DNA of 54,415 nt, from IMG/VR virus record IMGVR_UViG_3300037153_000425, positions 1-54,415 of that record. The stretch is one strand, 5' to 3'. This DNA is from a virus. Below the pieces are notes generated by a model that was not told the DNA's origin, ran no database searches, and saw only the letters and a list, made by a program, of their open reading frames with translations. The translations under genes were made by a program, and so were the position numbers. Position 1 is the first letter of the stretch. The number at the start of each line of letters is the position of its first letter. Of the stretch, positions 14,496-54,415 are shown one piece after another.

Positions 14496-15046
14496 GGCGT
14501 CTGCTCCCCGGCGTCGAGGGCGGCGAGCGCATCAACCAACGCCTGTTCCCAATCCTGATATGGCGGATCGGGGAAGTTTTCCCGCATCTCCCGCGCCGCC
14601 TCCACCACGCGCTCCCGCGCCTGCTCGCGGGCGAGGAGCGCGGCCAGGTCGGGGGCGTTAAGTAATTCGTCGGCGGACTTTGTGACGAGGGTATCTTGTC
14701 CACCCCATGCTCGAAGCGTCGTGCAGGTGGACCGCAGTTCCTTCACCAGCGCCGCGACGTGGGCGCGGAGTTGGTTGAGCCGCGTCGCGCCTTCCCCGAG
14801 GATTCTCCGCTCCGCAGAGGCGGCGTCATGCAGTTCTTCCCCGAGATGCCTGTTCATGTCCGTGAGCCGCGTGTTCTCGGCGCGGAGTTGGTCGCGTTCG
14901 TAGCCAATCGACGCGATACGCTGCTGATCAATACGACCAAGAGAACGGCGCGTTTCCACGTCCTGCGTGAGCCGCGCGTTCTCTTGATTCAGGCGGTCGA
15001 CGCAAGCGCAGCATGCGTGCTCTTGTGGCATGGGGTGCATAGCCAT
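14492..15046 (-). CDS. Coiled-coil protein, N-terminus rebuilt after HNH insertion
   Basis: A 184-residue protein starting at ATG 15046 with a GGAGG ribosome site. It has a C-C-A-C cluster, then long heptads (RLNQENARLTQDVETRR and onward). Its last part (LRAHVAALVK, then DAPDLAALLAREQARERV) matches the middle-element gene at 50957-51352. The front differs, because here an HNH gene has been inserted after codon 14 of the ancestral gene. Function unknown; its stop overlaps the resolvase start. Confidence 0.55.
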   Translation of the reverse strand: MAMHPMPQEHACCACVDRLNQENARLTQDVETRRSLGRIDQQRIASIGYERDQLRAENTRLTDMNRHLGEELHDAASAERRILGEGATRLNQLRAHVAALVKELRSTCTTLRAWGGQDTLVTKSADELLNAPDLAALLAREQARERVVEAAREMRENFPDPPYQDWEQALVDALAALDAGEQTP

Positions 15047-15508: not shown

Positions 15509-15811
15509 TCAGCCCTCCTCGCCGGCGCGTCGCGTGCGCCAGCGTCCGGTGCGGGCGTCCTCGGCCGCCCAGTGGGCTTTCCACCACGCGGCGGCCTGCG
15601 CGCGGCGTGCGGTGTCGCGGGTCCATTCGTCTGCCGCACTGACCTGCGGCTCCGCATACTCGCCCCGCTCATAGGCCGCGTGGTCGGCGGGCGTGACTGG
15701 GAGCCCGAGCTGGCGCCGGCGGCGCGCGATGTCCGGCGGGTAGGTGCCGCGGCGCTTCTCCTCGGGCGACTCGACGGCGCCCTCGTCGACCCATCCCCGC
15801 GTTTTTTTCAT
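15509..15811 (-). CDS. Uncharacterised 100-aa protein
   Basis: Starts at ATG 15811, overlapping the stop of the replication gene. The last 35 residues (WWKAHWAAEDARTGRWRTRR) match the end of the 166-residue gene at 51473-51973, while the N-terminal parts are unrelated. This is a chimera whose conserved tail is shared between elements with different replication proteins. No family recognised. Confidence 0.5.
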   Translation of the reverse strand: MKKTRGWVDEGAVESPEEKRRGTYPPDIARRRRQLGLPVTPADHAAYERGEYAEPQVSAADEWTRDTARRAQAAAWWKAHWAAEDARTGRWRTRRAGEEG

Positions 15812-16563
15812 CCCCGCCTCCGTTCGAGCTCCCAGGCGTTGCGGACCCAGTACTCCCACGCGCGGACCCAATCGGCGTGGCGGACGTCGTCCCGCAGCGC
15901 GTGGGCTTGGAACTTGCCCCACTCGTAGCGGGCGTCGAGCCCTTGCCGGGTCGCGTAGGCTGCGCGCGTCTCGGTCAAGGCGAAGTCATGGGGCCACGGC
16001 GTCTTGGCTTTCGCGCGTGGGGGCGCCGACTTTTCTTTGCGAGCGAAAGCGAGTTTCTTTTGTTCAGATCCGGGTACGGGTACGGGTACGGGATACACGG
16101 GGACAGCATCGGGACTCCCCGGGGGACAATCGTGCATGTCCCCCTCGGTGTCCCCTGGGGACTCCCCCCGGGACAGACGTTGCTTCGCCTTCTTGGATCG
16201 CGCACGTTCGCGATCGGCAAGAACTTTCTCGCGCGGCGGATTGTAGACGAGATAATCGTGCAGCTCCCAATACGCGCCGCGGTCATGCCAGAGGCCGATG
16301 GTCGCGAGCTCCGTGGCGATCTCGTCGGCGTCCAGCGGCAGAAAACGGTCCTCCTCCGGCCCGCAGGCCGGCGGCGCCGCCAAGGCCGTCCCGATGCCAT
16401 CGAGGCAGACCAGGGTCCGCACGCGGAGTTTCGGAATCAGGCCATCGGTCAGATTCCGGGCGCACCACGTGATGGCGGCGACGTGCAGTGCGAAGCCGAG
16501 CGGCCCCGCCGCGATGATTTTCGCGTTGTCGAGAATCGCGTCATCCAGTCGCGCCCAACTCAT
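15808..16563 (-). CDS. Phage replication protein, type 1
   Basis: A 251-residue protein starting M-S-W-A-R-L-D-D. The N-terminal 120 residues resemble the winged-helix region of phage replisome-organiser proteins (W-x-x-L-D-D start, a T-D-G-L-I-P motif). The middle is a low-complexity Pro/Val linker coded by G/C-rich repeats (see 16099-16175). The C-terminus (WVRAWEYWVRNAWE) could recruit helicase or its loader. The middle element has an unrelated replication protein in the same place. Role inferred from architecture and position beside the attachment site. Confidence 0.55.
   Translation of the reverse strand: MSWARLDDAILDNAKIIAAGPLGFALHVAAITWCARNLTDGLIPKLRVRTLVCLDGIGTALAAPPACGPEEDRFLPLDADEIATELATIGLWHDRGAYWELHDYLVYNPPREKVLADRERARSKKAKQRLSRGESPGDTEGDMHDCPPGSPDAVPVYPVPVPVPGSEQKKLAFARKEKSAPPRAKAKTPWPHDFALTETRAAYATRQGLDARYEWGKFQAHALRDDVRHADWVRAWEYWVRNAWELERRRG
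16099..16175 (-). other. Candidate replication origin: GGGGAC/GTCCCC dyads inside the replication gene
   Basis: Six copies of the hexamer GGGGAC or its complement (one or two with a mismatch), including the palindrome GTCCCCTGGGGAC at 16150-16162, lie in the middle of the replication gene. A less GC-rich stretch (about 16025-16075) lies beside them. This is the layout of lambdoid origins inside the initiator gene. A triplicated GGGTAC hexamer lies just downstream. The role is inferred. Confidence 0.4.
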
Positions 16564-16589
16564 CGCAACCCCTCCCCACGCCGCCGGGC

Positions 16590-16610
16590 GGTGCAAAGCG
16601 CGTTGCAAAG
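16590..16610. repeat. Paired arm-type repeats, left side of attachment site
   Basis: GGTGCAAAG at 16590-16598 and GTTGCAAAG at 16602-16610, spaced 12 bases. The same word occurs as a second 12-base-spaced pair on the other side of the tRNA core (16833-16853). Such paired direct repeats flanking a core are typical of integrase arm-type sites. Confidence 0.55.
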
Positions 16611-16712
16611 GAATTTCTGGCAACACGCGGCATCTGGCGTGAAACGTGACCGATGCCGCCCCACGCGGAATCTGAGGGAGCCTGCGACGTTAGGGTGCGC
16701 CCGCTGCTCGGA

Positions 16713-16735
16713 GGTGCCAACTGATTCTTGGCGCC
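16713..16735. other. Conserved hairpin next to the tRNA core
   Basis: GGTGCCAA and TTGGCGCC form an 8-bp stem (one G-T) around a 7-base loop. The same hairpin occurs at 52869-52891 with one loop change. It lies just 3' of the tRNA fragment on the tRNA strand and could be part of the recombination core or shape the 3' end of a transcript. No T-tract follows, so it is not a standard terminator. Confidence 0.4.
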
Positions 16736-16736
16736 G

Positions 16737-16780
16737 CCCGATTCGTAGTCAGACGCTCTATCCAACTGAGCTATGGGCGC
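16737..16780 (-). other. Attachment-site core: 5' half of tRNA-Arg(ACG)
   Basis: Read on the minus strand from 16780, the sequence folds as the 5' half of a tRNA: acceptor strand GCGCCCA, D-arm GCTC/GAGC, and an anticodon arm with loop CTACGAA, anticodon ACG. After the anticodon stem the match to tRNA ends: no T-arm with TTC and no CCA follow. The block 16731-16841 is identical to 52887-52997 while the flanks differ, as expected for an integration core under selection. I read it as the element boundary, not as a working tRNA. Confidence 0.65.
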
Positions 16781-16797
16781 GCAGTAGGGAAGTCGCG

Positions 16798-16826
16798 GAG
16801 TTAGCGCGATTTGGAGGCCACCGCAA
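16798..16826 (-). promoter_or_regulatory. Candidate promoter reading into the tRNA half
   Basis: On the minus strand TTGCGG (16826-16821), a 17-base spacer and TAACTC (16803-16798) end 17 bases before the tRNA 5' end. The sequence is identical in the second attachment region. If the phage supplies the 5' half of the host tRNA on integration it must also supply a promoter, and this is the best candidate. Confidence 0.4.
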
Positions 16827-16832
16827 CCCCCC

Positions 16833-16853
16833 GGTGCAAAGCCCGGTGCAAAG
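16833..16853. repeat. Paired arm-type repeats, right side of attachment site
   Basis: GGTGCAAAG at 16833-16841 and again at 16845-16853, matching the pair at 16590-16610. Having arms on both sides is the phage-type arrangement, so this junction looks like a full phage site between two elements instead of a chromosome-phage hybrid. Confidence 0.55.
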
Positions 16854-16874
16854 GATTCGTGTGGCGAATGCATC

Positions 16875-17393
16875 CTAGTCCTGATGAATCCTCTTGTGGC
16901 AGTCAGTACAGATCGCGACGAGGTCGAAAAGCATCTCGCGTCCGAGGCGGCGATAGTGCAGGTGATGCGCCTGCGTGGCCCGTCGCTCTCCGCAGCCTTC
17001 GCACAGGTGGCCCGCGCGGTGCAGGACGCGGCTGCGGCGCGCGTGCCATGCGGGCGTCCTGAGATACTCCTCATAGCGCCGGTGCCATTCCTCGTCCGCG
17101 CGTTGTTGCTCGGCGACATACTGGGCCTGCAGCATCGCACCTCTGACGCGCGCGGCGATGCTGTTCCGGCATCCTTGGCACGTACTGCTGGTCCCCTCGT
17201 TGCGGCCGAGCGCAGTGCCACCGAGTGCCGACGTCTCTCGTCCGCAGACCGTACGGGCCGGATTGTCGAGATGGACGACATGAATCTTGCCGCTGCAGAG
17301 TTGTCCGGTAACCGGGTGCCGATATTGGGCCGCCTGCCAGAGTGGGGCTTCGGACCAGCGCTCGTCTTCTTCGTATGGATCGAGCGTGGGCAT
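16875..17393 (-). CDS. HNH endonuclease between attachment site and integrase
   Basis: A 172-residue protein starting three bases after the integrase stop. The N-terminal half has three Cys-containing loops (LCSGK, TVCGRET, TCQGC). The C-terminal half has a coiled region and an HNH core: C-E-G-C-G, T-Q-A-H-H-L-H-Y, I-C-T-D-C-H. In the right-hand element the integrase stop lies directly beside the attachment region with no such gene, so this is an insertion. It may be a homing-type enzyme. Confidence 0.7.
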   Translation of the reverse strand: MPTLDPYEEDERWSEAPLWQAAQYRHPVTGQLCSGKIHVVHLDNPARTVCGRETSALGGTALGRNEGTSSTCQGCRNSIAARVRGAMLQAQYVAEQQRADEEWHRRYEEYLRTPAWHARRSRVLHRAGHLCEGCGERRATQAHHLHYRRLGREMLFDLVAICTDCHKRIHQD

Positions 17394-17395
17394 CC

Positions 17396-18535
17396 TCACC
17401 GCTTCCCCTGCCGGCCCCGGAAGCGGGCCCGCTCGGCCGCCACCGTGCGCGCCCGGTCCATCGCCGCGCGCAGCCGCTCGACGTTGCCCATGTCGTAGTT
17501 CCGAAAGACGTAGGCCGTATGATGCCCGGTCACTTTCATGGCGTCGGCCTCCTCGAGCCCGCCGGCCCGCAGCGTGGTCGCCGCCGTGCGCCGCGTATCG
17601 TGGAACACGTAGCCGCCCGCCACCGCGCCGACCGGGAGCGCGGCCGCCGTGCACGCGCGCGCCCACGCCTTCCGAAAATCCCCGAGGCAGCCGTATTTCT
17701 TGGACGGCGCGCGCCCGCCCCGGCACCAGCGCCCGTGAAACAGGTACGGGCACCACGGGCGTGCGGCCGCCAGGGCCTCCTCGACAAGCGTCAAGGACCG
17801 GCCGACGAGCGGCAAGACGTGCGGCTCGCGCGCCTTGCACTCCTCCGGCGGCCACTCGATCACCGCCCGCTCGAGGTCGACGAAGCGGCGCAACGTGCGT
17901 GCCAACTGGCCGCGGCGGATGCCGTTCTCGAGCGCGAATTCGAAGAACACCGCGGCGTAGTCGGGGAGCTGCTCGAGGAGCACGATCGCGTCGCCCGGCG
18001 GCACGTAGCGGGCCCGGCGCCGCCGCCGGCGCTCGTCCCGCATGGCAAAGTACGGCACCCCGCGGAGCTGGCCGGTCTGGCAGGCCAGCCGGTAGGCCCG
18101 GCGCAGCGCCGCGAAGCGGCGATTGATCGTGGCGTTGCTCGCCCCGGCCCGTTTCCAGGCGTCGCCGATGGCGGTCACCTGCTGCGGCGTCACCGTGGCC
18201 GGGCGGAGCGGGCCGACGCCGGCCGCGAGCCACGCCTTGATCGAGCCGCGGACGCTCGGCAGCGAGGTCTGTTCGTTTCGCGTGTAGTCCGCCTCGAGCT
18301 CGGCGAGGAGCTGCGCGACGGTGAGGCGCCCGCTCGGGACCTCCTCGCCGTCGGCGACGGCGGCGAGCCGCTGCGCCCGCAGCCCCCGCGCGGCGCGGAT
18401 CGACGTCGTGCGGGCGCTCTCCTGCCGGACGCGGCCGCCCTGCGTGTAGTGGATCCAGAGCGTCGGGAGCACGGCCGCCGTCCGCGGCGAGATGCGCCGG
18501 AAGATGCCCGGCTCGACGGCGACGGTGCGTTTCAC
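17396..18535 (-). CDS. int: Tyrosine integrase
   Basis: A 379-residue tyrosine recombinase from a GTG that overlaps the excisionase-like stop as GTGA. The N-terminal part is an arm-binding/core-binding region. Catalytic residues are visible: Arg207 (GIRRGQ), a candidate Lys234 (EECKAREPHV), His312 and Arg315 (FHDTRR), His338 (VTGHH) and the nucleophile Tyr347 (RNYD). It would recombine the phage site with a tRNA-Arg gene, fitting the core 0.6 kb away. It is clearly homologous to but diverged from the integrase at 53029-54159, so the two elements have sister integrases with the same core. Confidence 0.9.
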   Translation of the reverse strand: MKRTVAVEPGIFRRISPRTAAVLPTLWIHYTQGGRVRQESARTTSIRAARGLRAQRLAAVADGEEVPSGRLTVAQLLAELEADYTRNEQTSLPSVRGSIKAWLAAGVGPLRPATVTPQQVTAIGDAWKRAGASNATINRRFAALRRAYRLACQTGQLRGVPYFAMRDERRRRRRARYVPPGDAIVLLEQLPDYAAVFFEFALENGIRRGQLARTLRRFVDLERAVIEWPPEECKAREPHVLPLVGRSLTLVEEALAAARPWCPYLFHGRWCRGGRAPSKKYGCLGDFRKAWARACTAAALPVGAVAGGYVFHDTRRTAATTLRAGGLEEADAMKVTGHHTAYVFRNYDMGNVERLRAAMDRARTVAAERARFRGRQGKR

Positions 18536-18945
18536 GGCAGATCGCCCTGGATCCCCGCGAGCAACTGCCGCTTCCACCAAATGACTTTGCCGTTGGGGTA
18601 CTTGTGGTACCCGGGCAAGTCTTTCCCGCAGTGCCGTAACCGCGATTTCGAGTAGCCGGTGAGCACCATCACCGCGGCGATCCCGAGCGGCTCATCGGGC
18701 TCGACGGCGTGTACCGGCGGCGGGCTCGGCACGGCCAGCTCGACGCACGTCGCCTTCGCGACCTCACAGTGCCCGATCGTCTCGATGGCGTCGCCGAGGC
18801 TGGCGGCATTCAGGGCGGCGCCGAGGGCGAGCTTCACGGCTGCCCACTGCTGGCCGTTCGCCTTGGCGTGGATCGTCGCCCTGGCCCCCGTCGTCAATTC
18901 GCCCCCGAATCGTCGCCTCCCCGCCGCATCCACCCCGCTGCCCAC
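18532..18945 (-). CDS. Excisionase-like winged-helix DNA-binding protein
   Basis: The C-terminal 45 residues (V-L-T-G-Y-S-K-S-R-L-R-H, then P-G-Y-H-K-Y-P-N-G-K-V-I-W-W-K-R) have the look of a MerR/AlpA-type excisionase domain. The N-terminal 90 residues are helical and unrecognised. I chose the GTG at 18945, about 25 bases after a predicted transcription start. The frame stays open further upstream, so the start is uncertain. Translational coupling to integrase supports a recombination directionality role. Confidence 0.6.
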   Translation of the reverse strand: MGSGVDAAGRRRFGGELTTGARATIHAKANGQQWAAVKLALGAALNAASLGDAIETIGHCEVAKATCVELAVPSPPPVHAVEPDEPLGIAAVMVLTGYSKSRLRHCGKDLPGYHKYPNGKVIWWKRQLLAGIQGDLP

Positions 18946-37630: not shown

Positions 37631-37980
37631 TCGCCCGGGGCCCTGCGGCGCGGCTCGGGCCGACGCCCCCGTTTTCCGGCCAGCTCCTCCGCGTGACGGG
37701 CGAGGGCGAGCAGGTGACGATCGCCTTCACGGCGTCGACGTCCGCCGAGCTCGCCGAGGCGCTCGCCATTGCCGGCGCCGCCGCCCTCGCCCGCCTGAAA
37801 GCCAACAACGCCGCCGTCCTCGAGGCCGGCGCGCACTTCGAGGACCGGCAACGCCAGGTGTACGCGCACGCGGTGGCGCAGCTCCGCCGCGAGCTCGGCG
37901 TGCCCGACCCGCCCGCGGAGGAGGACGCGACCCGTGCCGACGATCCCGCCGGGGCGGTACACGCGGCAGAAAATCCGTGA
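37627..37980 (+). CDS. Uncharacterised 117-aa head-tail joining region protein
   Basis: Starts by ATGA overlap. A beta strand (EQVTIAFTAS) followed by Ala-rich helices (AEALAIAGAAALARLKANNA). It overlaps the start of the adaptor gene by 47 bases in another frame. Confidence 0.5.
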   Translation: MIARGPAARLGPTPPFSGQLLRVTGEGEQVTIAFTASTSAELAEALAIAGAAALARLKANNAAVLEAGAHFEDRQRQVYAHAVAQLRRELGVPDPPAEEDATRADDPAGAVHAAENP

Positions 37981-38617
37981 CCTCGCGTTGAATCGCGCGG
38001 GCAACCGCGCGCTCGACGCCGACGCCGCGGATTTCCTCGCGCAACACCTCTTCGAGCTCTACACGCTCGCCGACTGGCCGTTTCTCTACGTGTCGGCGCC
38101 GCTCGTGCTGACCGGCCCGACGGTCGACTTGCCCGCCGATTTCATGACGGCGCAGGACGATCACGCGTTTCAGATCATCGCGATTGACGGCGGGGCGCAA
38201 AGCAACTGCTTTGCCGTCGAGGTCTCGCCCGAGGAATTGACCGCGATGGCGGCACCGACGTCGTACGGCGTGCCGCAGTATTGGGCGGTCTCGCGGAGCG
38301 ATACCACCGCCCGCGTGGCGCCGGATCCGACCGGGCGGCGGATCGACGTCGTGCTCCGCTACAAACGCCTCCCACCCGACCCGCTCCCGGCCGAGGAGCC
38401 CGCGGACGTGCCCGTGTTCCCGTACCACAATTACCTCGTGCAGGCGGTCTACGTGTTCGCCCTCGAGCACGAGCGGGACGCGCGCGCGCAAGCCGAGGCC
38501 GCCACCCGCGACACCTTGCTCGCGATGATTCGTCGCGGCGCCGCGCCGCTCCGCTCGCAGCGCGCCGACATTCCGCTCGACCCGCTCATCTTCGGGCGGC
38601 CGTTCCGCGGGGATTAG
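37934..38617 (+). CDS. Head-tail adaptor (tail tubular A-like)
   Basis: The complete 227-residue version of the truncated gene at 1-653. It starts at GTG 37934 inside the previous gene (MPTIPPGRYTRQKIRDLALN). This start gives the only full-length view of the family here. The region from 37964 onward aligns with position 1 of the window, marking the start of L/M homology in view. Confidence 0.65.
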   Translation: MPTIPPGRYTRQKIRDLALNRAGNRALDADAADFLAQHLFELYTLADWPFLYVSAPLVLTGPTVDLPADFMTAQDDHAFQIIAIDGGAQSNCFAVEVSPEELTAMAAPTSYGVPQYWAVSRSDTTARVAPDPTGRRIDVVLRYKRLPPDPLPAEEPADVPVFPYHNYLVQAVYVFALEHERDARAQAEAATRDTLLAMIRRGAAPLRSQRADIPLDPLIFGRPFRGD

Positions 38618-50960: not shown

Positions 50961-51352
50961 GGCGTCTGCTCCCCGGCGTCGAGGGCGGCTCCTGCGGCGT
51001 CGAGTTCATCACGGCCACACTCGCATGCCGCATCGGGACGACCGCGCGCCTTCAGGCAACGCAGGTCATGAGCGTCGGTACAAGAGAAGGCGCCTCGGTG
51101 GCTGTCGCACACGTCATAGGCCGCTTTGAATCGGCGCAGGGCATGCAGCTCGCGCTCCCGCGCCTGCTCGCGGGCGAGGAGCGCGGCCAGGTCGGGGGCA
51201 TCGAGGGCTTGCTGCAACGCGATATGCGCCGCTCCGCCAATGGCAAGGTGAGGCCAGCCCCGCAGCGTATCGTGAATCACCTTCACCAACGCCGCGACGT
51301 GGGCGCGGAGGTGGGCGTTCTCCGCCCGCAGCGCCTCCAGTTCGTCCGTCAT
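50957..51352 (-). CDS. Coiled-coil protein, uninterrupted form
   Basis: A 131-residue protein: MTDELEALRAENAHLRAHVA, then the A-P-D-L-A-A-L-L-A-R-E-Q-A-R block shared with 14492-15046. A Cys-rich segment follows (CDSHRGAFSCTDAHDLRC, ACECGRDEL), absent from the left copy. It shows the state before HNH invasion. Confidence 0.55.
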   Translation of the reverse strand: MTDELEALRAENAHLRAHVAALVKVIHDTLRGWPHLAIGGAAHIALQQALDAPDLAALLAREQARERELHALRRFKAAYDVCDSHRGAFSCTDAHDLRCLKARGRPDAACECGRDELDAAGAALDAGEQTP

Positions 51353-52745: not shown

Positions 52746-52766
52746 GGTGCAAAGCGCGTTGCAAAG
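52746..52766. repeat. Paired arm-type repeats, left side of second attachment site
   Basis: GGTGCAAAG at 52746-52754 and GTTGCAAAG at 52758-52766, identical in spacing to 16590-16610. Confidence 0.55.
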
Positions 52767-52892
52767 GAATTTCTGGCAACACGCGGCATCTGGGGTGAAA
52801 CGTGACCGATGCCGCCCCACGCGGAATCTGAGGAAGCCTGCGACGTTAGGGTGCGCCCGCTGCTCGGAGGTGCCAACTGTTTCTTGGCGCCG

Positions 52893-52936
52893 CCCGATTC
52901 GTAGTCAGACGCTCTATCCAACTGAGCTATGGGCGC
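52893..52936 (-). other. Second attachment-site core: 5' half of tRNA-Arg(ACG)
   Basis: Identical over the whole tRNA half, the upstream candidate promoter (TTGCGG and TAACTC at 52954-52982) and beyond to the core at 16737-16780, at an offset of exactly 36156 bases. The hairpin beside it (52869-52891) has one loop substitution. It marks the M/R boundary. Confidence 0.65.
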
Positions 52937-52988
52937 GCAGTAGGGAAGTCGCGGAGTTAGCGCGATTTGGAGGCCACCGCAACCCCCC

Positions 52989-53008
52989 GGTGCAAAGGCG
53001 GTGCAAAG
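52989..53008. repeat. Paired arm-type repeats, right side of second attachment site
   Basis: GGTGCAAAG at 52989-52997 and 53000-53008. Spacing is 11 bases here against 12 in the first site. Arms again lie on both sides of the core. Confidence 0.5.
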
Positions 53009-53028
53009 GAAACGGTGCGTCAAACGGC

Positions 53029-54159
53029 TCATCGGCGGTCGCGGAAGCGGGCGCGGTGCGCGGCGACGGCGCGGGCGCGATCCAACTCCTCGCGGAGCCG
53101 GTCGACGTTGCCGAGATCGTAGGTGCGGAACACGTGCGCCGTCTTGTGGCCCGTCACCTTCATGGCGTCGACCTCCTGCATGCCGCCCGCCCGCAGCGTG
53201 GTCGCGGCGGTCCGCCGAGTATCGTGGAAGACGTAGCCGCCCGCCACCGCCCCCACGGGGAGCTGCGCGGCCGCGCAGGCCGTCGCCCACGCTTTGCGGA
53301 AGTCGCCGAGGCAGCCGTACTTCTTCGACGGTGGCCGCCCGCCGCGGCACCAGCGGCCGTGAAAGAGATACGGGCACCAGGGCCGGGCGGTGGCCATCGC
53401 TTCCTCGACGAGCGTCAAGGAGCGACCGACCAAGGGAAGCACGTGCGGCTCGCGGGCTTTGCATTCGTCCGGCGGCCACGCGATCACGCCGAGCTCCAGG
53501 TCGACGAAGCGGCGTTGCGTGCGGGCGAGCTGCCCCCGGCGGATCCCGTTCTCCAGCGCAAACTCGAAGAAGATGGCGGCATAGGTCGGGAGCTCCTCGA
53601 TCAGGGCGACCGCGTCCCCCGCCGGCACGTAGCGCGCGCGGCGCCGGCGGCGCGTCTCGTCGCGCATGGTGAAGTGCGGAATCGCCGTGAGCCGTCCGAC
53701 GTGGCAGGCGAGTGCGTAGGCGCGCCGGAGGGCGGCGTTGCGGCGGTTGATCGTGGCATTCGCGGCGCCGTGGCGGTGCCAGTCGTCGCCAATTGCCAGG
53801 ATGCGCTCGGGGCGGAGTTCGCTCGGGCGGAGTCGGCCGATCCCGGTGGCGAGCCACGCTTTGATGGACCCGCGCACGCTCACAAGAGAGGCGCGCTCGT
53901 GGCGGGCGTAGTCGGCTTCGAGGTCCTCCAGCAAGCGGCGCACCGTGAGCCGCCCATCGGGCTGTTCCTCGCCGAGGCCGACGGCGGCGAGGCGCTGGGC
54001 GCGGAGCTGTCGGGCCACGCGGAGTTTGGTCGAGCGCGTACTTTCCTGCCGGACGCGCTGGCCGATGCTGTAGTGGATCCAGAGCGTGGGGAGCACGGCG
54101 CCCGTCCGGGGCGAGATGCGCCGGAAGATGCCCGGCTCGACGGCGACGGTGCGTTTCAC
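53029..54159 (-). CDS. int: Tyrosine integrase of the right-hand element
   Basis: A 376-residue homologue of 17396-18535 with the same catalytic pattern: G-I-R-R-G-Q, E-C-K-A-R-E, F-H-D-T-R-R, V-T-G-H-K-T and T-Y-D for the Tyr nucleophile. It ends directly beside the attachment region; the HNH gene found here in the middle element is missing. GTG start overlaps the upstream stop as GTGA. Confidence 0.9.
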   Translation of the reverse strand: MKRTVAVEPGIFRRISPRTGAVLPTLWIHYSIGQRVRQESTRSTKLRVARQLRAQRLAAVGLGEEQPDGRLTVRRLLEDLEADYARHERASLVSVRGSIKAWLATGIGRLRPSELRPERILAIGDDWHRHGAANATINRRNAALRRAYALACHVGRLTAIPHFTMRDETRRRRRARYVPAGDAVALIEELPTYAAIFFEFALENGIRRGQLARTQRRFVDLELGVIAWPPDECKAREPHVLPLVGRSLTLVEEAMATARPWCPYLFHGRWCRGGRPPSKKYGCLGDFRKAWATACAAAQLPVGAVAGGYVFHDTRRTAATTLRAGGMQEVDAMKVTGHKTAHVFRTYDLGNVDRLREELDRARAVAAHRARFRDRR

Positions 54160-54415
54160 GGCAGGCCGCCCTGGATCCCCGCGAGCAACTGCCGCTTCCA
54201 CCAAATCACTTTCCCGTTGGGGTACTTGTGATAGCCGGGCAACTCTTGGCCCCGGTGCCGCAAGCGCGATTTCGAGTAGCCGGTGAGCACCATCACCGCG
54301 TCGATCTTGAGCGGCTCGTCGGGCTCGACGGCGTGCACCGGCGGCGGGCTCGGCACGGCCAGCTCGACGCACGTCGCCTTCGCGACCTCACAGTGCCCAA
54401 TCGTCTCGATGGCGT
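54156..54415 (-). CDS. Excisionase-like protein, cut by window end
   Basis: The last 86 codons of the homologue of 18532-18945, containing S-K-S-R-L-R-H-R and Y-P-N-G-K-V-I-W-W-K-R. Its start is outside the window. Confidence 0.6.
   Translation of the reverse strand, partial: AIETIGHCEVAKATCVELAVPSPPPVHAVEPDEPLKIDAVMVLTGYSKSRLRHRGQELPGYHKYPNGKVIWWKRQLLAGIQGGLP

Follow-up and report, generated by a model that had tools for sequence, protein, structure and literature searches.

A probable phage attachment site that carries the 5′ half, and not the 3′ half, of a tRNA-Arg(ACG) gene

Does a temperate phage that enters a tRNA gene always bring the downstream part of that gene, or can it bring the upstream part and place its own DNA in front of the tRNA? 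In almost every phage that targets a tRNA gene, the tRNA stays under the control of the host promoter. A review of archaeal tyrosine recombinases states that the original promoter drives bacterial tRNA targets in all but very few cases (PMC8371274). The Islander collection, with 2083 anticodon-centred sites, holds 3760 islands with 3′ tDNA fragments against 159 of 3919 with a 5′ fragment (PMC4383910), in agreement with the premise of the initial annotation that the 5′ half is the more rarely used; in a review passage citing Williams 2002, its use is described as seldom seen in bacteria (PMC8371274). The question is raised here by a locus in a 54,415-nt stretch of viral DNA, the whole of which is referred to below as the window.

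The minus-strand sequence GCGCCCATAGCTCAGTTGGATAGAGCGTCTGACTACGAATC corresponds exactly to nt 1–41 of tRNA-Arg(ACG), extending through the anticodon loop plus TC, and the identical 41 nt occur again at 52896–52936 on the same strand. By chance, even a 24-nt piece of this tRNA half is expected 0.00 times, as estimated from shuffles. Intact tRNA-Arg(ACG) genes in two MAGs, one of Omnitrophota and one of Nitrospirota, share exactly these 41 nt; from nt 42 onwards, the intact genes go on with AGAAGG, whereas the phage goes on with GGGCGG, so the identity is confined to the 5′ half. Neither a complete tRNA (ARAGORN; Rfam at the gathering score) nor a tRNA 3′ half was found in the window, and in a permissive Rfam scan, the tRNA model aligned convincingly over the 5′ half only, scoring 19 bits against a gathering score of 29 bits. 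The shared block, running from tRNA nt 1 to the anticodon loop with no 3′ half, has the layout of 5′-half (reversed) integration, and the core is the half that the initial annotation had named. The hairpin that it placed directly 3′ of the core was found as well (GGCGCC-N11-GGCACC with one C·A mismatch), and it is not a T arm. A terminator role for this hairpin was rejected (T-run absent, z −0.3 to −2.5), as was a full tRNA in the phage. A 91-nt fold of the tRNA half and the sequence after it, with GCGCCC/GGGCGC pairing (16690–16780, minus strand, z −2.6), is degenerate in the other lineages, L005 and L009.

Paired arm-type repeats enclose the tRNA half, which occupies a noncoding gap separating a tyrosine integrase gene from a replication gene; because of this position, the locus is very probably the attP of a temperate phage docking into a bacterial tRNA-Arg gene (Table 1). 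The two repeat pairs, CCTTTGCAMCG/SSCTTTGCACC, flank the core on either side; for such paired repeats, CCTTTGCAMCGSSCTTTGCACC, 0 are expected by chance and none appeared in shuffles. The interval outlined in the initial annotation ends almost exactly on them, although that annotation made no mention of repeats. The integrase matches PF00589 over the cut-off, with phrog_1 at E 4e-27 for the second copy in the window, and its catalytic R..K..HxxR..H..Y residues are invariant in four homologues. The earlier reading of the locus as an attachment site was thus upheld by the attP-like anatomy with arm repeats and an adjoining integrase. An open frame across the site, giving ...APIAQLDRASDYESGG..., was considered and rejected as protein-coding: the substitutions have no codon-position bias and amino acids change freely, from which it follows that the attP is noncoding.

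Table 1 Coordinates of the features at and around the two tRNA-half sites of the window
Feature	Position	Strand	Basis
attP of phage A (P arm, core, P′ arm), very probable	16590..16854	-	Sequence, repeats, comparison
Common core, nt 1–41 of tRNA-Arg(ACG)	16740..16780	-	Exact match to intact genes in two MAGs
Anticodon loop CTACGAA, predicted 7-bp overlap for strand exchange	16742..16748	-	Sequence and analogy with anticodon-loop integrases (PMC8371274)
Hairpin after the tRNA half	16713..16735	-	Sequence, folding
P′ arm-type repeat pair, CCTTTGCACCG/GGCTTTGCACC	16833..16854	-	None in shuffles
P arm-type repeat pair, CCTTTGCAACG/CGCTTTGCACC	16590..16611	-	Repeat search
TTGCGG, proposed −35 of the initial annotation, continuing from GGGGGGTTGC, a conserved block next to the P′ arm	16821..16826	-	Sequence comparison
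TAACTC, proposed −10 of the initial annotation, 17 nt before tRNA nt 1 in all lineages	16798..16803	-	Sequence comparison
Replication-initiation gene of phage A, directly downstream of the P arm	15808..16560	-	phrog_2447, 3.7e-24
HNH endonuclease gene, located between the integrase gene and attP (approximate end)	16875..17386	-	phrog_144, 2.7e-9
Tyrosine integrase of phage A, upstream of the tRNA half on the same strand	17396..18535	-	Profile match, alignment
attP of strain B (core 52896–52936)	52746..53009	-	Sequence match
Replication-initiation gene of strain B, of another family than that of phage A	51970..52716	-	phrog_9474, 3.6e-39
Tyrosine integrase of strain B, stop about 20 bp from the P′ arm	53029..54168	-	Profile match
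Exact direct repeat of 37965–38091, probable assembly overlap closing the circle of phage A	1..127	.	Repeat search

The presence of two sites in one window has to be accounted for. The first 127 nt of the window, beginning at base 1, are an exact direct copy of 37965–38091, the longest exact repeat in the contig, and would represent an assembler overlap on a closed circle. The window is therefore probably a complete circular phage (phage A, 1–37964, 37,964 bp) chained through this overlap into a sibling strain, B. In such a chimeric contig, the two sites are the attPs of two strains rather than prophage ends, and repeats within the window compare strains rather than reveal internal duplications; the “both sites” of the initial annotation would accordingly not be the two ends of one prophage. 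Two related units do stand head to tail, as tandem prophages in one chromosome would, the two copies then being their attL/attR hybrid junctions. We regard that arrangement as improbable, however, since a 127-bp perfect copy at the very start of the contig is what a circular assembler overlap leaves, a related single genome has one site in its middle, and host flank is absent from the window.

That related genome (G001, L005/L006, 37,859 bp) and a 7313-bp contig, L009, provided two further independent attPs of like anatomy, with integrases 78–79% identical to that of strain B. G001 runs collinear with a single turn of the circular unit in the window, and its site, lying inside a whole collinear phage genome, is for this reason an attP and not a prophage end. 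Arm repeats are paired on both sides of the core in all four attPs, and the order is the same in every case: integrase gene, P′ arm, leader, tRNA half, hairpin, P arm and replication-initiation gene. The HNH endonuclease gene intervenes between the integrase gene and the P′ arm only in phage A and G001, being missing from unit B and L009.

Comparison of these sites qualified the statement of the initial annotation that the tRNA half and promoter are identical in both copies while the flanks drift. The identity of these elements in the two copies of the window is real, but a whole block of 296 bp is 97% identical there. In the two more diverged attPs, the tRNA half is indeed fixed; at the same time, the spacer and leader drift and TAACTC gives way to TAAGTG. 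Across the three independent lineages, the core is invariant at 40 of 41 positions (25/26 for tRNA nt 1–26), and the block GGGGGGTTGCRG beside the P′ arm at 11 of 12, compared with 4/15 in the spacer, 6/8 in GCTAASTS, 6/17 in the leader and 109/140 in the 3′ flank. Identity falls to about 50% in the DNA just before the tRNA half, and beyond the arms, the sequences cannot be aligned. As strand exchange needs identity only around the anticodon loop, the near-invariance of nt 1–26 would fit selection to keep the tRNA half functional in lysogens. The opposite view, that the half is a decayed remnant or a chance similarity with no role in integration, appears hardly tenable, given that it is nearly invariant in three lineages, between conserved arm repeats and beside an integrase gene.

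With a high degree of confidence, we thus interpret the locus as the attP of a circularly mapping temperate phage of about 38 kb, whose integrase uses the anticodon loop of the host tRNA-Arg(ACG) gene and which itself supplies the 5′ half. By analogy with other anticodon-loop integrases, the crossover would fall within CTACGAA, where the tyrosine integrase would exchange strands. After integration, one end would consist of the host promoter and 5′ half reading into the replication-gene end of the phage. At the other end, the phage 5′ half would join the host 3′ half to restore the tRNA, giving the junction GCGCCCATAGCTCAGWTGGATAGAGCGTCTGACTACGAATC followed by host sequence (AGAAGG...), with P′ arm DNA upstream. 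The rebuilt tRNA would be preceded by the integrase gene, the HNH gene in some strains, the P′ arm and about 52 bp of leader, and its transcription would start in phage DNA, either in the leader or as run-on from the integrase operon. Integration of this kind in the phage's own host, and transcription of the rebuilt tRNA there, are expected from the model. The claim of the initial annotation that phage DNA takes over the region upstream of the tRNA follows from the way strands would be exchanged in the anticodon loop and has a counterpart in the integrated element described below; the promoter named for it did not gain similar support. The contrary findings foreseen in that annotation were not encountered: there was no identity over the 3′ half and no intact phage tRNA.

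An exact search for the 41 nt in 84,980 species, run as a genome contig scan restricted to A/T at nt 16 and to A at nt 7, so that hosts with other bases there would be missed, returned the two MAGs, of about 55% GC against 71% in the phage, each with an intact tRNA and no sign of the phage. The integrase had no match in the phage or plasmid collections, and its profile, applied without a positive control at E 1e-40, retrieved nothing from 80 Nitrospirota and 38 Omnitrophota-MAG relatives. The comparison with a host gene proposed in the initial annotation therefore yielded an exact 41-nt match in the intact genes of two MAGs, while no host, attB, attL or attR of the phage was found either in the scan of 84,980 species or with the integrase profile in the Nitrospirota and Omnitrophota-MAG relatives.

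The geometry proposed for the phage is, however, realized in an integrated element. In contig 28 of G210 (locus L035, 856–18387), whose phylum, Nitrospirota, is taken from the MAG at the centre of the search, a 17.4-kb element carrying a TrwC relaxase, a coupling protein and a tyrosine integrase is integrated in tRNA-Arg(ACG). Its integrase gene stops 81 nt upstream of the intact tRNA, which has element DNA on its upstream side, and 17.4 kb upstream lies the displaced 5′ fragment, identical over 39 bp and with its end in the anticodon loop. The element resembles the phage in its target gene, in the 5′-half geometry and in the integrase gene just upstream of the rebuilt tRNA, and differs from it in its conjugation genes. 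Since the two integrases are only 22% identical, the element is a parallel case and not a further instance of the phage system. A quick check found no shared repeat longer than 9 bases at the element ends, and the downstream flank is partly shared with a relative.

What would drive the rebuilt tRNA is a separate question. The elements described in the initial annotation, TTGCGG, 17 bases and TAACTC, are present on the strand of the tRNA half, but their designation as a promoter did not hold up well: they match the sigma-70 consensus at 5 of 12 positions, the final T of the −10 is missing (the last base being C or G), and the second box varies, reading TAAGTG in the two other lineages. A sigma-70 scan of 16400–17000 gave no qualifying site, and near-consensus hexamers with A2 and T6 of the −10 are not present. 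Nevertheless, all the lineages share GCTAA and keep both distances, 17 and then 17 to tRNA nt 1, while the surroundings drift. The boxes are more fixed than the spacer in a post-hoc Fisher test (p = 0.02), and the best 5-base run gives p = 0.16. The main competitor, to which we would assign slightly less than an even chance, is that run-on from the integrase (or integrase-HNH) operon provides the transcript of the rebuilt tRNA, as stated for the archaeal pTN3-type integrases, and that TTGCGG-17-TAACTC is not a promoter. The integrase gene points the same way as the tRNA half and, in strain B, stops about 90 nt short of it; a search of 16400–17000 revealed no minus-strand terminator. The −35-like TTGC adjoins the conserved arm block without a break, and the −10-like hexamer lacks its final T. 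Against this, constitutive integrase expression would be unusual in a lysogen, an essential tRNA needs a steady supply, and GCTAA is kept at its constant distance from the tRNA. A promoter at TTGCGG-17-TAACTC is about as likely as run-on from the integrase gene. A more elaborate and rather doubtful proposal is that the attP acts as a promoter exchange, in which a leader promoter of the free phage drives transcription across the tRNA half and on into the replication gene; integration would hand that promoter to the host tRNA-Arg and turn the host tRNA promoter towards the replication gene, with the conserved hairpin restraining it. If this were true, integration itself would switch the control of the replication gene and tie the tRNA-Arg supply to the prophage.

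The 5′-half arrangement is uncommon yet already on record, and the phage adds a member to it (PMC4383910, PMC8371274). The Islander islands with 5′ fragments have the same combination of a tyrosine integrase, a tRNA target and replacement of the tRNA 5′ half by the element (PMC4383910), although those islands are integrated and were found by mapping, whereas the phage is known here from the phage side only. The pTN3-type integrases also use the tRNA 5′ half, with expression from the integrase promoter (PMC8371274); in Thermococcus, the shared 5′ half is likewise 41 bp, and the rebuilt tRNA is parted from its original promoter (PMC5495485, PMC8371274). In that archaeal system, however, the target is tRNA-Leu, not tRNA-Arg(ACG), and the attP lies inside an integrase gene that is split on integration, whereas the phage attP follows an intact gene. 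In the actinobacteriophages Fionnbharth and Gaia, the phage also comes to provide an essential tRNA after entering the gene for it, but does so with a short core of 8–10 bp and a complete phage tRNA (PMC10865867). Such tRNA-dependent lysogeny is a known strategy, in which the shared sequence serves recombination only and the host loses its tRNA, which is then replaced from a phage tRNA gene at another position; for the present phage, it is very unlikely, because the core is 41 bp instead of about 8–10 bp and no tRNA gene is found in the window or in the related genome. A phage family that seizes the upstream half of a probably single-copy, essential tRNA offers a clean case for studying tRNA expression in lysogens and bears on whether tRNA supply ties a host to its prophage, and the set of related attPs makes the site testable.

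Additionally, several observations were made on the surroundings of the site. The 97%-identical attPs of phage A and strain B are bordered by replication genes of different families; together with the presence or absence of the HNH gene, this swap marks sharp module boundaries at the arm repeats. Upstream of the integrase gene, at about 18540–18700 on the minus strand, a short helix-turn-helix-like frame (...LTGYSKSRLRH...), also found in G001 and partly in L009, is possibly an excisionase. Finally, a 49-bp stretch is perfectly conserved between the two strains at 14608–14656 and 51151–51199.
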